A stretch of 64,000 nucleotides of DNA, from assembly GCF_003449035.1 (NCBI RefSeq), contig NZ_QRGB01000001.1, positions 930,001 through 994,000 on the forward strand, read 5' to 3'. The notes below the pieces were generated by a model. It was not told the DNA's origin. It did not search any database and saw only the letters and a list, made by a program, of their open reading frames with translations. The stretch comes from Pedobacter indicus. GTDB lineage: Bacteria > Bacteroidota > Bacteroidia > Sphingobacteriales > Sphingobacteriaceae. A program made the translations under genes and the position numbers. Positions 36,813-56,006 of the stretch are shown here, in pieces (the first letter of the stretch is position 1; every line of letters begins with the position of its first letter).

Positions 36813-37547
36813 ATGATATTAAAAGCAGAACATTTGGTAAAGAAGTATAAACAACGAAAGGTTGTTGACGACGTGTCCTTCCATGTCGAACAGGGAGAGA
36901 TCGTAGGTTTGCTTGGACCAAATGGAGCCGGGAAAACAACTTCTTTTTATATGATTGTTGGACTCATTAAGCCAACTGAGGGAAAAGTTTTCTTAGATGA
37001 TCAAGAAATTACCGGTGACGCGATGTATCGGAGGGCGCAAAAAGGTATCGGCTATTTAGCACAAGAAGCTTCCGTGTTTCGGAAGCTCTCTGTTGAAGAT
37101 AATATTCTAGCAGTGCTGGAGATCCATTATAAGGACAAAGAAGAGCGCAAGCAAAAGTTAGAGGAACTGATTAATGAGTTTAGTTTGAATAAGGTTCGGA
37201 AGAACCGAGGAGATCTACTTTCGGGTGGCGAAAGGCGTCGAACAGAGATTGCACGTGCCTTGGCCGCGAATCCCAATTTCATTTTGTTAGATGAGCCTTT
37301 TGCCGGTGTTGACCCGATTGCGGTCGAGGAGATTCAAACCATTGTTCATAAGCTCAAACATCGAAATATAGGTATTTTAATAACGGACCATAATGTTCAG
37401 GAGACCCTTTCAATTACGGATCGAGCTTATTTATTAACTGAAGGTAAGATCATGTTAACCGGGACCCCTCCTGAGATAGCTGTAAATGAAATGGCAAGGA
37501 AATTTTATTTAGGTCAGAATTTTGAATTAAAAATTAAAAAGCGTTAG
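36813..37547 (+). CDS. lptB: LPS export ABC transporter ATP-binding protein LptB
   Basis: 244 residues. It powers removal of LPS from the inner membrane together with LptF/LptG. Walker A is GPNGAGKTT, the Q-loop YLAQEASVF, signature [15 protein letters not shown], and Walker B plus D-loop [13 protein letters not shown]. These last features set LptB apart from general importers. An LptF/G-family permease is encoded at 50063-51508, not adjacent. The GH3 gene starts 9 bases after the stop. Confidence 0.95.
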
Positions 37548-50062: not shown

Positions 50063-51508
50063 TTATCTCGCTTTACGCTTAAACGGCTTTTGAATTTTTC
50101 GCCAAGTTTTTTTCACAATCGTTTTGTACTGTTCCACGTCAAATAAGGCTGAATCTGTTGCTGCCTTATAAGTTAGGAAAACACCTAGTGGAGCCAATAC
50201 AATGATGGCTGTCCACATCCCCAGCGTTGTATCAATGTTCCCTTCGCGAGCCGACTTCTCAGCCAATGTTGAAATTACGTAGTAAATCAAGAAAAAGATG
50301 ATGGCCATGACCACCGGAAGCCCCAGTCCCCCCTTTCTTATGATCGCACCAAGCGGAGCCCCAATTGAGAAAAAAACCAGGCATACCACCGATAGTGTAA
50401 ATTTGCGTTGATACTCCATCAGGTAGCGGCGTATCGAAGTGCTGAATTCCGCATCTGTTGTCGCCTTTAAGGTCAATACATCCTGAATATAACGTACTTG
50501 GTTGCTTGCTTCTGAGACCGCCTGCGTTTTACTGTCATCCGGAATAAGTTCAAGCGTACTGTTCTCAAAAGTTACTGGACTTGTATTTTCGATCTTAAAA
50601 GGCTGATATTGATTATAAACACGGTAATAGGGGATGATTTCCCGAATAACCGTGGTTCTTAAACTATCGTTATAATGTTGAATTGAGTCAGCGTAATAGT
50701 CGAGTTGCCGAAGATTTAACATCGCATAATGACTTTTGAACAGATTCTCGTCAGTTCTTTTCATTTGAAAATCGGACATGTCAAATCGCTGCTCGGTTTG
50801 CTCAAAATAGTATCTTGTAAACAGCTGACGCGGATTGTAGACCTTCGAGCCAGATTGCTCTTCGTAGCGCACACCGTTTTTCAATTCTAAGATCATGTAG
50901 TTGGGATCCGGCGCATCGTACATTTTGCCTTCTTCGGCCATCAATACATTTGTTCCCGAAGAACCCTGTGCATGTTCATAGATCGTCAGGTTATGAAGGA
51001 GCGTTCCATCATTACTTTTATCCATTGCCCGGATCGAATAATTCGGGATGCTATTGTTGAAGACTCCTTCAGTGATTAAAAAGTCTGCTTTCTTTTGTCG
51101 CACATCGTACAAAAGGGACCCCATCTTTAAATTAGCAATTGGCAGCATGTAGTCACTGAAGAAAAAAGCTCCCGTGCTAAAGAGCATCACAAAGATGATA
51201 AGCGGCATCATCGCTTTTCGGAGCGATATTCCCGCAGCTTTAATCGCAACCAATTCATAGCTTTCTCCTAAATTGCCGAAGGTCATAATTGACGAGAGGA
51301 GCATGGAAAGAGGTAAAGCCATCGCTACATTGGTCGCAGACGCATACCATAGTAGTTGCAGGATAACATACCATTCGAAGCCTTTCCCAATGAGGTCATC
51401 GATGTATTTAAATAAAAAAAGCATCAAAAGCACGAACATTACGATAAAAAACGTAACGATGAATGGCTTTATAAATGCCTTTAGTACAAGTACGTGAACC
51501 TTTTTCAC
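50063..51508 (-). CDS. LptF/LptG-family permease (YjgP/YjgQ)
   Basis: 481 residues with six membrane helices: three near the N-terminus (about 13-35, 45-75, 97-118) and three near the C-terminus (about 365-450), flanking a beta-jellyroll outer domain. The N-terminal LKAFIKPFIVTFFIVMFVLLM pattern and GAPLGAIIRKGGLGLPVV are typical. It extracts LPS from the inner membrane with LptB. The start is a GTG at 51508; an exact TATCTTTG ends 4 bases before it. Confidence 0.93.
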   Translation of the reverse strand: MKKVHVLVLKAFIKPFIVTFFIVMFVLLMLFLFKYIDDLIGKGFEWYVILQLLWYASATNVAMALPLSMLLSSIMTFGNLGESYELVAIKAAGISLRKAMMPLIIFVMLFSTGAFFFSDYMLPIANLKMGSLLYDVRQKKADFLITEGVFNNSIPNYSIRAMDKSNDGTLLHNLTIYEHAQGSSGTNVLMAEEGKMYDAPDPNYMILELKNGVRYEEQSGSKVYNPRQLFTRYYFEQTEQRFDMSDFQMKRTDENLFKSHYAMLNLRQLDYYADSIQHYNDSLRTTVIREIIPYYRVYNQYQPFKIENTSPVTFENSTLELIPDDSKTQAVSEASNQVRYIQDVLTLKATTDAEFSTSIRRYLMEYQRKFTLSVVCLVFFSIGAPLGAIIRKGGLGLPVVMAIIFFLIYYVISTLAEKSAREGNIDTTLGMWTAIIVLAPLGVFLTYKAATDSALFDVEQYKTIVKKTWRKIQKPFKRKAR

Positions 51509-52178: not shown

Positions 52179-54908
52179 TCAAGCGGAATCTACCCTTTCA
52201 ATTGTGTAAGATCCTTTTCCTGCTTCGAAGAAGATTGTATTCTTTCCGTCTTCTACCTGCGCATTTAACTCAACTTTTCCTCTTTTATTTTTTACGACCC
52301 ATTTCCCCGCTTCCAGTCCGGCTAAAGCTACCTGATAAACACCTTTTCCTTTTGAGGGGATATCAATCAAAAAGCTCTTATCAATCAATTCTGAGCTATT
52401 GCTCATACTGATGACACGATCAGCCAAGTAAATCACATAACTAACATCCGTTTCTTTGTAGTTTATTGGCAACGGTTCCGTGTTGCCATCCACGATCTGG
52501 AAGACAGTCAGGAACCGATCCCGTCCATTTGCATTCTCGGGCGAGATCATAATCCGATTAGCGCGACCCTCTGGGTGGCTTGACGGAGGTGCTTCAAATT
52601 GTGTTTCAAAAGCACTATTAGCTTTTTCGCCACTAAATATCTCAATTGTCCTCTTGTCCGGACTCGGCACTAACATCTGAACATGTGTCTTGCCAACCTT
52701 ATCTCCTCTTTTACTATTTAAGATCAGACCATCCGCTGTTTTCTCTGGAACGTTTAGGGTGTTTATCTGCCAATATTTTTTGAAATTCGGGTTGCTCGTC
52801 TGCATATCATCGGTTAAGATGATTGCCGCTGGCACTGATTCATTTTCTAGATTTAAAAACATAAAACTCCGCGTATATTTGCTGATTTTATAGGAATATG
52901 CTCCCTCTAAGTCGACCGAGAAATAACTGAAAGGAGGTTTCATTTCCGACGGTCCATAGCTTGCCGAAACGACTTTACCATTATCAAACCATGGATCAGT
53001 TTGCACCTGCTCTGCCGATGTTGGTGCACGTTGATTGAATCGCGCCCCTCCATCATTTGCCTTACTTCTGTAGAATTCTTCGTCCGGATCAACCGCTAAC
53101 ATCATGCTGTGTGAAATGGATCGTTTGTTAAAGCCCAGATCATAAGGAGTGCCATAGAATTTGTAAAGTCCAATATCACCCAGCTGGAAACCCCGATAGT
53201 AAAGTTGCATTGATCCAGCATCTGCATGCTGATGATTTCCAAAATGATAGCCACCACCTTTAATTTCTGCAACGACGTCGTCACTTTCATCACTGATATC
53301 CCATCCCGTTCGCGTGATCATTGAACCCAGTATAGGTCCAAAATCGATTGTCAGAGGCAGGCTTTCCAGACTTGGTTCAGCTTTAAGTTCCGGATCATTT
53401 AGCAATAAAAATAATACCGGATTGGAATTCAGACCTCCATGTCGCAAGAATTCACCTTTCACAACCGGGTCAGCCGAGTAGGCTGACATTAAGAACATCA
53501 CCATTGGCGACTTCCAATAGTAAGGTTTTCCCGGCGCACCAGCACCAAAACCATCCCCATCGCGCAGCATCTGCCCATTTGGTGTTCGCATATACAGGAA
53601 GTACTTGGAAACATCCTTGATATTATCATCAAAAGCGGGTTTATCGGTCATTCTGTACATCAACCAAGCAGCGTGCATTTCCCATGCAAACCGGTAAGCT
53701 GCATAACCTACTCCCTGATTGTGGCGTGGCGACTGGTATTCAAATTTTCGCATCGGTACAAGTGTTTCCAGTACAGCATAAGAAGTGTATTGGTAGGGTA
53801 GAGGGTTCTCATTGTAAATCGCGATACTCATAGCCAGCAAATCGCGGTTCACCTGAGCCTCATTCCCATGTCCGTTTACAATACTTGTTAGAAATGGCGG
53901 CCAGCCAATTTCCATATCATCGGCTAATCGCATCAAATTATTGACCATCAGCTTCTTTTCATCTTCCGTAAGGAGATCATAAGTCCAGTCGTATACTTCG
54001 GAAGCAATAAAAATAGCCCGTCCCATCTCTCGTGTAATATCCAACAGATTACCAAACTCCACATGAGACAAATAAGGCGCCATCAGTTCAATTGCTTCGC
54101 GACCGATTTCCCTATCGCCGGTCATCAGGTAATAAAATGCTTTCATCTCTGCAGCCACTTCCAAATCCGCATTGAAGGACATCTCCTCACTTGGGTCAAA
54201 TTCAAAAACGAACGGAACTAAAGCCGCTTTCTTTACTTTCTCCCAAGCCGCTTTGTGCTCGTCTGCCTGTAGGCGCGCTTTAACTAAAGGTAGGGTCTCC
54301 TTATTCACCAGTATTCTTGGGTGGGAAGCCGGTGGCGTCATCGTCGGCTTATAATTGACTGCAGCCTCAGGAACTTTCGGAGGTACATAAGTTTGCAATT
54401 GCAAATATTCCAAACGCACACCCCGTGGCAGCCAGATTTTAATTTCCTGTTCTTCACCAGTTAAAGCGAATTTTCCCGACCGCTGCAAAGGCCTGTCCCA
54501 CGGTACATATACTACCCGTTTCGTTGCCCGCTGATCATCGATCTGTATCCTCATGTACATCGATTCATATTTGCTCGATGCTTTCTTCATCAGCGCAGCT
54601 CCTTCTTCATCGGTCACCGCATAACTATGCATCACATAGCGTCCTGCATCTGGAGCCTTTACGCGGAAAATTAAATCTGGCTCATCCCGTTCACCCTCAA
54701 TCGCCTGTTCGATCCCGGACTTCAGCGTCACACCTTCCTTGTTGGTCAGTCGCTCGTCAGCCACTTTTTCACTGCTTTTCGTATTTATATCAGCCGTCGC
54801 CGCATTTAGACGAAAAGGTTTATTAGGGACAAATTCTATTGTTTGCGCAAGTAACGGTAACGTAACCGATATGGATAAAATCAAAATAAAGGTTAGCTTT
54901 TTGTACAT
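52179..54908 (-). CDS. Heparinase II/III-family polysaccharide lyase
   Basis: 909 residues. A signal peptide (1-21, ending LLAQ) is followed by a beta domain, an alpha toroid (about 200-480), and the C-terminal heparinase II/III-like beta domain with HFGNHQHADAGSMQL, where the catalytic or metal His residues are expected. Such lyases cleave uronate-containing polysaccharides. The substrate could be a heparin-like, alginate-like or other uronan; sequence alone does not tell. No SusC/SusD, sulfatase or regulator is nearby. Confidence 0.85.
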   Translation of the reverse strand: MYKKLTFILILSISVTLPLLAQTIEFVPNKPFRLNAATADINTKSSEKVADERLTNKEGVTLKSGIEQAIEGERDEPDLIFRVKAPDAGRYVMHSYAVTDEEGAALMKKASSKYESMYMRIQIDDQRATKRVVYVPWDRPLQRSGKFALTGEEQEIKIWLPRGVRLEYLQLQTYVPPKVPEAAVNYKPTMTPPASHPRILVNKETLPLVKARLQADEHKAAWEKVKKAALVPFVFEFDPSEEMSFNADLEVAAEMKAFYYLMTGDREIGREAIELMAPYLSHVEFGNLLDITREMGRAIFIASEVYDWTYDLLTEDEKKLMVNNLMRLADDMEIGWPPFLTSIVNGHGNEAQVNRDLLAMSIAIYNENPLPYQYTSYAVLETLVPMRKFEYQSPRHNQGVGYAAYRFAWEMHAAWLMYRMTDKPAFDDNIKDVSKYFLYMRTPNGQMLRDGDGFGAGAPGKPYYWKSPMVMFLMSAYSADPVVKGEFLRHGGLNSNPVLFLLLNDPELKAEPSLESLPLTIDFGPILGSMITRTGWDISDESDDVVAEIKGGGYHFGNHQHADAGSMQLYYRGFQLGDIGLYKFYGTPYDLGFNKRSISHSMMLAVDPDEEFYRSKANDGGARFNQRAPTSAEQVQTDPWFDNGKVVSASYGPSEMKPPFSYFSVDLEGAYSYKISKYTRSFMFLNLENESVPAAIILTDDMQTSNPNFKKYWQINTLNVPEKTADGLILNSKRGDKVGKTHVQMLVPSPDKRTIEIFSGEKANSAFETQFEAPPSSHPEGRANRIMISPENANGRDRFLTVFQIVDGNTEPLPINYKETDVSYVIYLADRVISMSNSSELIDKSFLIDIPSKGKGVYQVALAGLEAGKWVVKNKRGKVELNAQVEDGKNTIFFEAGKGSYTIERVDSA

Positions 54909-55038: not shown

Positions 55039-55329
55039 ATGAAAGTCTGTCTCCATTTTTATAAGCGCATATTTGTAGCAAATTTTATGTTAGCTCTCTT
55101 ATTTTCGCTACTTTCTTTACCAGATCTCCTTTCCATGTTTAAAGCATTCGCCATTTCGTTGCCTACTTTCGCTTATGGACTGACGATTTATTTTTTCGAT
55201 CGATTTAAATACCAGTACTACCTGTATAATAATCTAGGCTACTCGAAAAAAAATCTAATTTTATTCGGATTATTAGTCAATGTCATACTATCTACCCTTT
55301 TGTTTGTCATCATTATTCTGACCAAATGA
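55039..55329 (+). CDS. Small three-helix membrane protein, partner of an ABC ATPase
   Basis: 96 residues from the ATG at 55039; the frame is open 40 codons earlier but that part has no coding character. Three hydrophobic segments (about 12-30, 36-52 and 72-94) surround a polar, aromatic loop (FFDRFKYQYYLYNNLGYSKKN). The YNNLGYSK part looks like the short coupling motifs in ABC permeases. I do not recognise the family by name. It overlaps the ATPase gene by 4 bases (ATGA), strong evidence that they act together. Confidence 0.75.
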   Translation: MKVCLHFYKRIFVANFMLALLFSLLSLPDLLSMFKAFAISLPTFAYGLTIYFFDRFKYQYYLYNNLGYSKKNLILFGLLVNVILSTLLFVIIILTK

Positions 55330-56006
55330 ATACTTTAGAAATCGATTCCGTTCGTTTGAGTTTTTCCAACTTTTCTCGAGAACAACGTATTTTAACAGAC
55401 TGTTACTTAAACTGCGTTTCAGGCGAAATCATCGGTGTTCTCGGTCGTAACGGTTGCGGTAAGTCCTCTTTATTCAAAATTATTTTTGGTTCGCTAAACC
55501 CGGCGAACAAACTCATACGCATTAATGGGGAGGTTTGCAGTCAACCTTTCAAGAAGAAGCTAGTAGGGTACATCCCACAGGTTAGCATTTTTCCGGGCGA
55601 TTTTACGGTCAATAAGCTTCTTAAATTTCTCTTCGGAAAGGAGCGCTTGGAGTCCATAAAGTCCTATGAACGTATCGAGTCCATCTTAAAAACCAAGATC
55701 AGGAAACTGTCGGGAGGTGAGTTAAAATACTTGGAAGTATTAACGATGCTCCACATGAATCATCCGTTTATTCTACTTGATGAACCCTTCTCTGGAGTAG
55801 AGCCCATCTATCAAAAAGAGATACAGGTTTTATTGAAAAGTAATCCCCAAAACAAAGGAATCTTGTTGACTGACCATAACTATCGGAACATCCTTGAAGT
55901 CAGTGACCGATTGTATCTGCTACGAGAGGGCGTGTTAAAGCATGTCACTGATTTTAGCGAGTTGGAGTTGTATGGATATGTCCCTTCGGGTACTTTTGGA
56001 AAGTGA
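55326..56006 (+). CDS. ABC transporter ATP-binding protein of unknown substrate
   Basis: 226 residues. Walker A is GRNGCGKSS, Q-loop YIPQVSIF, signature KLSGGELKYLEVL, Walker B and D-loop ILLDEPFSGVEPIY, H-loop TDHNYRN. All ATPase motifs are intact. The helical domain between Q-loop and signature is short. It has no usual permease; its only partner is the 96-residue membrane protein with which it shares a 4-base overlap. It differs clearly from LptB in this window. A role in export or in membrane-protein control is equally possible. Confidence 0.88.
   Translation: MNTLEIDSVRLSFSNFSREQRILTDCYLNCVSGEIIGVLGRNGCGKSSLFKIIFGSLNPANKLIRINGEVCSQPFKKKLVGYIPQVSIFPGDFTVNKLLKFLFGKERLESIKSYERIESILKTKIRKLSGGELKYLEVLTMLHMNHPFILLDEPFSGVEPIYQKEIQVLLKSNPQNKGILLTDHNYRNILEVSDRLYLLREGVLKHVTDFSELELYGYVPSGTFGK

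Follow-up and report, generated by a model that had tools for sequence, protein, structure and literature searches.

A conserved gene pair of Bacteroidota encodes a three-helix membrane protein with predicted LptF/LptG likeness and an LptB-like ABC ATPase

Analysis of a 64,000-nucleotide stretch of the Pedobacter indicus genome (the window; contig NZ_QRGB01000001.1, positions 930,001 to 994,000) and of related genomes revealed a real, conserved two-gene system that occurs in many Bacteroidota and in which a gene for a small membrane protein is followed by a gene for an ABC ATPase (Table 1). We think it probable that the two products form a minimal stand-alone ABC complex, composed of a membrane subunit with the architecture of the N-terminal half of LptF/LptG and of an LptB-like ATPase. 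The original prediction for this DNA had described a 96-residue three-helix frame overlapping a 226-residue ATPase frame by four bases, the latter with every catalytic motif. Both frames are found there, and Walker A, the Q-loop, the signature, the Walker B glutamate and the H-loop histidine are all present.

Table 1. Features of the two-gene locus, in window positions
Feature	Position	Strand	Evidence
Small membrane subunit, 96 aa, TM1-TM2-short cytoplasmic helix-TM3	55039..55329	+	Reading frame, AlphaFold2 model, conserved pairs, dN/dS
ABC ATPase, 226 aa, LptB-like, own clade	55326..56006	+	Reading frame, NCBIfam, profile match, tree
Four-base overlap (ATGA) of small gene and ATPase gene	55326..55329	+	Both frames
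Coupling-helix-like motif QYYLYNNLGYS, small-protein residues 59-69	55213..55245	+	Conservation in 216 members; LptF/G papers
Walker A GRNGCGKS, ATPase residues 40-47	55443..55466	+	Motif, conserved in 216 members
Q-loop region YIPQVSIFP, ATPase residues 82-90; position of the coupling-helix groove in LptB	55569..55595	+	Motif; weak co-variation enrichment
ABC signature LSGGE, ATPase residues 128-132	55707..55721	+	Motif, conserved in 216 members
Walker B ILLDEP with catalytic Glu, ATPase residues 149-154	55770..55787	+	Motif, conserved in 216 members
H-loop Asp-His, ATPase residues 183-184	55872..55877	+	Motif, conserved in 216 members

A first search of 60 relatives returned a small-protein homologue with 44% identity (in G016) and weaker homologues in G034, G017 and G015; in each of these genomes an ATPase of the same kind follows just downstream. 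Alignment-based searches found the small protein in 97 of 251 genomes of the window's family, in 123 of 299 genomes of a second family (that of G579), in 34 of 197 genomes of another (that of G475) and in 40 of 395 genomes phylum-wide, the last count including two weak out-of-class matches that are frames interrupted by stops. In two large Bacteroidota families, roughly one third to two fifths of the genomes sampled contain a member of the small-gene family, and named records carrying the pair include Mucilaginibacter, Sphingobacterium, Chryseobacterium, Dokdonia and Snuella. This patchy presence implies an accessory function. We collected 216 distinct pairs, in which the gene order is kept and an overlap or near-overlap recurs; among the collected loci the two proteins never occur as a natural fusion. 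Both genes are under purifying selection, with a median dN/dS of 0.15 (small gene) and 0.12 (ATPase) and with all pairs below 0.5. The low dN/dS, together with the recurrence in 216 pairs, shows that the small gene is not a chance open reading frame.

No ATPase of this subfamily lacks an adjacent small gene in the 216-pair set, most of whose loci had been found via the small gene, and the ATPase was therefore also sampled separately as the starting point. First, the small gene lies directly upstream of all 15 ATPases recovered in this way from the 60 relatives. Second, in the second family, where 50 of 149 genomes have an ATPase match, it lies directly upstream at each of the 30 loci checked. 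In the sole ATPase-matching genome that was absent from the small-gene matches (G689), the start of the ATPase is overlapped by a diverged hydrophobic frame of 92 residues. Consistent co-occurrence across Bacteroidota, on which the original prediction was to be judged, is thus borne out by both samples and by the diverged frame of G689, but not by about 20 small genes that lack the ATPase (described below) nor by L040, a metagenomic locus with no small frame of the usual length upstream of the ATPase. L040 apart, no relative that keeps the ATPase and lacks the small frame appeared.

The three-helix protein had been taken for the only membrane partner of the ATPase, and the neighbourhoods agree in that no other membrane gene is consistently linked. 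Of the close co-directional neighbours at the 115 loci flanked by 600 bases or more on either side, only nine are predicted to contain two or more helices, and these are of mixed kinds; both neighbours lie on the opposite strand in ten of the loci, and no co-transcribed full permease recurs in this set. ATPase homologues accompanied by a full permease, named beforehand as evidence to the contrary, likewise did not appear. Wider neighbourhoods are syntenic at the genus level only (e.g. a sigma-factor-like gene in six loci). On the basis of this genus-level synteny and of the lack of a recurrent membrane neighbour, the pair seems to form a self-contained unit of two genes. The membrane subunit linked to the ATPase that is expected of an ABC transporter is the small protein itself, in the 216 pairs and in the ATPase-first samples alike. 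In the window, the divergent upstream neighbour (52179-54908, minus strand) encodes a 909-residue protein resembling a secreted polysaccharide-lyase-type enzyme, and no link between it and the pair was seen in relatives.

The ATPase belongs to the ABC_tran family (PF00005), scoring 73.5 bits in Pfam against a curated cut-off of 25, and in the 216 members D152-E153 is kept in about 99% and H184 in 95%. The ATPases of L043 and L044 (Dokdonia and Snuella) have an altered ABC signature (LSMGE and LSLGQ versus LSGGE), and the small gene is kept at both loci. The best NCBIfam model is the equivalog of LptB (TIGR04406), to which the ATPase scores 109 bits against a cut-off of 240 and the true LptB of the same genome 373 bits; LptB is also the best solved structure for the ATPase profile. 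Judged by these sequence scores, LptB proteins are its nearest relatives. Phylogenetically, the pair ATPases group in a single clade (100/100) that is separate from LptB and the genome's other ABC ATPases; as the tree is unrooted, LptB as the sister group does not follow from it alone. A defence system was considered for the ATPase and rejected, the PADLOC matches being generic to nucleotide binding. The window also encodes the true LptB match (36849-37451, plus strand) and a full-length LptF/G-type protein (50063-51508, minus strand), which indicates that the small system coexists with normal Lpt parts.

The small protein has no family in Pfam, NCBIfam or PADLOC: neither the window protein nor 60 members matched Pfam, the best Pfam hint (DUF3267, E 0.034) was rejected because it falls below the family cut-off, and the small-protein profile, searched against PDB sequences, yielded nothing up to E 10. 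An AlphaFold2 model built from 60 sequences (mean pLDDT 95.6) has helices at residues 2-24, 30-40/44-54 (kinked), 58-65 and 70-95, predicting the order TM1 (2-24), TM2 (30-54), a short cytoplasmic-side helix (58-65) and TM3 (70-95), with short loops. The YNNLGYSKK stretch that had been singled out as a loop is indeed conserved (N65 in 99% and G67 in 98% of 216 members), but in the model it covers the last part of the short helix and the turn that leads into TM3. The likeness to the N-terminal half of LptF/LptG was recognised from sequence ahead of modelling; the original prediction had overlooked it, along with the coupling-helix-like nature of the short helix. Foldseek found no significant match of the model in the PDB or among viral models. 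When Foldseek's 43 candidate chains were aligned with VIA-align, LptG came out on top (8ufh_G, Z 8.2; 8frl_G, Z 8.0), with the caution that helical models can reach a Z of about 8 through a common arrangement. The LptG alignment covers 95 of 96 residues at 2.8 Å and corresponds to LptG residues 5-125, its N-terminal three-helix half; the next chain was unrelated (Z 5.5 at 8.1 Å). We regard the LptG match as support for a likeness, not as proof. For a modelled protein of the subfamily without ATPase (pLDDT 85.8) there was no PDB chain for comparison and hence no replication of the LptG match.

In LptF/G the coupling helix lies between TM2 and TM3, is marked by phi-x4-E-phi-x-phi-phi-x3-G and occupies the Q-loop groove of LptB, and tyrosines at the start of TM1 (LptF Y6, LptG Y10) contact LptB (PMC5082905, PMC5548808). 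The helix at residues 58-65 of the small protein stands at the same place. Among the 216 members, the glycine is present in 98%, the three phi positions after the glutamate are hydrophobic in 88-100%, and a tyrosine near the start of TM1 is conserved in 82%. By contrast, the glutamate (position -8 from the glycine), which is strict in LptF/G, is not strict here: it is the commonest residue (42%) and is replaced by glutamine in the window protein, while the phi position five residues before it is hydrophobic in 17% of members. The coupling-helix motif of LptF/G thus recurs as a family tendency in the small proteins, and the lax glutamate and the mostly non-hydrophobic position five residues before it make this a likeness to the motif rather than membership. 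Profile-profile comparison with Bacteroidota LptF/G gave the expected register in both runs, placing G-[YI]-S on G-I-S, but each time the scores did not leave the span covered by shuffled controls; comparison with FtsX and ABC2 gave nothing, likewise within the nulls. On the basis of these scores, common descent with LptF/G is unproven and the likeness is one of predicted fold and motif only. Nor does the small protein, with its 96 residues and three helices, have the six helices and periplasmic jellyroll of the LptF/LptG family (PF03739), to which it has no Pfam match.

Co-variation between the two proteins was assessed by direct-coupling analysis of 214 paired sequences (effective number 190). 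The rectangle formed by the short helix and the Q-loop contains four of the top 20 between-protein pairs (0.4 expected) and six of the top 100 (2.0 expected); 3% of equal-sized rectangles match it, and its mean signal is not clearly raised. Co-variation therefore weakly supports a contact between the short helix and the Q-loop. Could the LptF/G likeness simply be chance, the small protein being unrelated to ABC membrane domains and partnering the ATPase in some unspecified way? We consider this unlikely, for although sequence-level homology to LptF/G is lacking and the Z score is modest for a helical protein, the match spans the whole protein and had been expected beforehand, the partner ATPase independently points to LptB, and the spacing of the motif agrees with LptF/G.

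Compared with known systems, the pair comes closest to LptB2FG (type VI; PF03739, TIGR04406), with which it shares, according to the model, the order TM1-TM2-coupling helix-TM3 and the fold of the LptG N-terminal half, and also the motif tendency and an ATPase nearest to LptB. It differs in that the small protein has neither TM4-6 nor a periplasmic jellyroll and no significant sequence match, that one small gene takes the place of two large ones, that the ATPase scores far under the LptB cut-off and forms its own clade, and that the pair is accessory whereas LptB2FG is universal. MacB and FtsX (type VII, PF02687) resemble the pair in having a small membrane domain per half and a helix that contacts the ATPase, as the short helix may do here, but they have four helices and a large periplasmic domain, as opposed to three helices and short loops, and no Pfam or profile match links them to the small protein. 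With four helices per half, MacB has the smallest ABC membrane domain in the classification (PMC8386196), and the earlier premise that ABC exporters need at least five or six is therefore incorrect. Type V exporters (ABC2, PF01061), whose membrane fold has been described as resembling LptF/G (PMC8386196), have six helices per half plus an elbow helix and no profile match to the small protein. A literature search with a coverage that mostly excluded subscription journals found no description of three-helix ABC subunits or of truncated LptF/G, in keeping with the earlier statement that no described system of this plan was known. Among known ABC transporters, none may have a smaller membrane component than this protein.

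By analogy with LptB2FG, where each membrane subunit provides one coupling helix, the ATPase would dimerise and two small subunits would each place a coupling helix in the Q-loop groove of one ATPase copy, probably giving a 2:2 complex with six membrane helices in total. Assembly from several membrane copies, one of two options raised originally, fits this arrangement. ATP cycles would then open and close the helix bundle and extract or move a lipid or amphiphile at the inner membrane, the substrate being a guess; in the absence of a jellyroll and of a linked LptC/A-like gene, it is probably not passed to a periplasmic bridge. More tentatively, and with somewhat less than even confidence, we propose that the complex is homodimeric and represents a new minimal ABC membrane domain, whose 3+3 helices equal the bare LptF/G core on an LptB-like motor, while copies without their own ATPase might borrow LptB or another one. 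The Lpt-like reading is favoured by the linkage of the pair, selection, the lack of any other linked membrane gene, the confident model, the LptG match, the LptB-nearest ATPase, the motif, the TM1 tyrosine and co-variation; against it stand the profile-profile and Foldseek nulls, the caution on Z scores, the second model without candidates, glutamine in place of glutamate and the small genes without ATPase.

The other option raised originally, that the pair is not a transporter, is retained as a rival: ATP cycles could move the three-helix protein and thereby alter an envelope protein encoded elsewhere, as in a mechanical signalling complex of the FtsE-FtsX kind. The patchy, accessory distribution, the lack of a periplasmic domain and of linked exporter parts, and the little room that six helices would leave for a substrate cavity accord with such a role, which we nevertheless find improbable because FtsX chains fit the model worse in VIA-align (Z 3.3 or less) and because FtsX signals via a large periplasmic domain, whereas the loops of the small protein are very short.

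Small genes that exist without the ATPase had also been overlooked. In the collected loci, 21 small genes have no ATPase within 300 bases; 18 of them form a distinct subfamily, including one that is the first gene of a tandem in genome G826. At thirteen loci of G579's family (L454-L466), viewed over 10 kb, the ATPase-less gene has a divergent release-factor-1-like gene as its neighbour and a purM-like gene a few genes further along, both identities having been read from the sequences by eye. Searches of those genomes with the ATPase gave LptB-level matches only (E ~1e-44), except in a few with a complete pair elsewhere, and one LptB-level match (L428) is LptB by NCBIfam. The ATPase-less genes are under selection (L325 versus L342: dN 0.13, dS 1.16). 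On the basis of the conserved chromosomal site and purifying selection, this subfamily may act with another ATPase. At the same chromosomal place in G826 (L304, 2108-2734, minus strand; L469), the ATPase is preceded by a tandem of two different small genes. This tandem is compatible with either one motor serving two different membrane subunits or a later loss of the ATPase in the others, and hints at a membrane heterodimer. In L250 (genome G719) the small gene is followed only by a 79-residue C-terminal ATPase remnant, and the pair looks broken or frameshifted. The persistence of ATPase-less genes under selection where ATPase-profile matches reach only the LptB level would suit a membrane-anchoring or regulatory role in which the small protein attaches the ATPase to another permease, or competes with or borrows LptB, making the pair an incomplete machine, but this is the least likely of the explanations since the ATPase adjoins its own small gene, is never beside a consistent permease and belongs to a clade apart from LptB.

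If the reading as a minimal Lpt-like ABC complex is true, a widespread form with three helices would define the minimal ATP-coupled membrane unit, and the size of the small protein would allow complete mutational scans of the LptB2FG-type coupling step. The pair would also give an unannotated gene family its first description.
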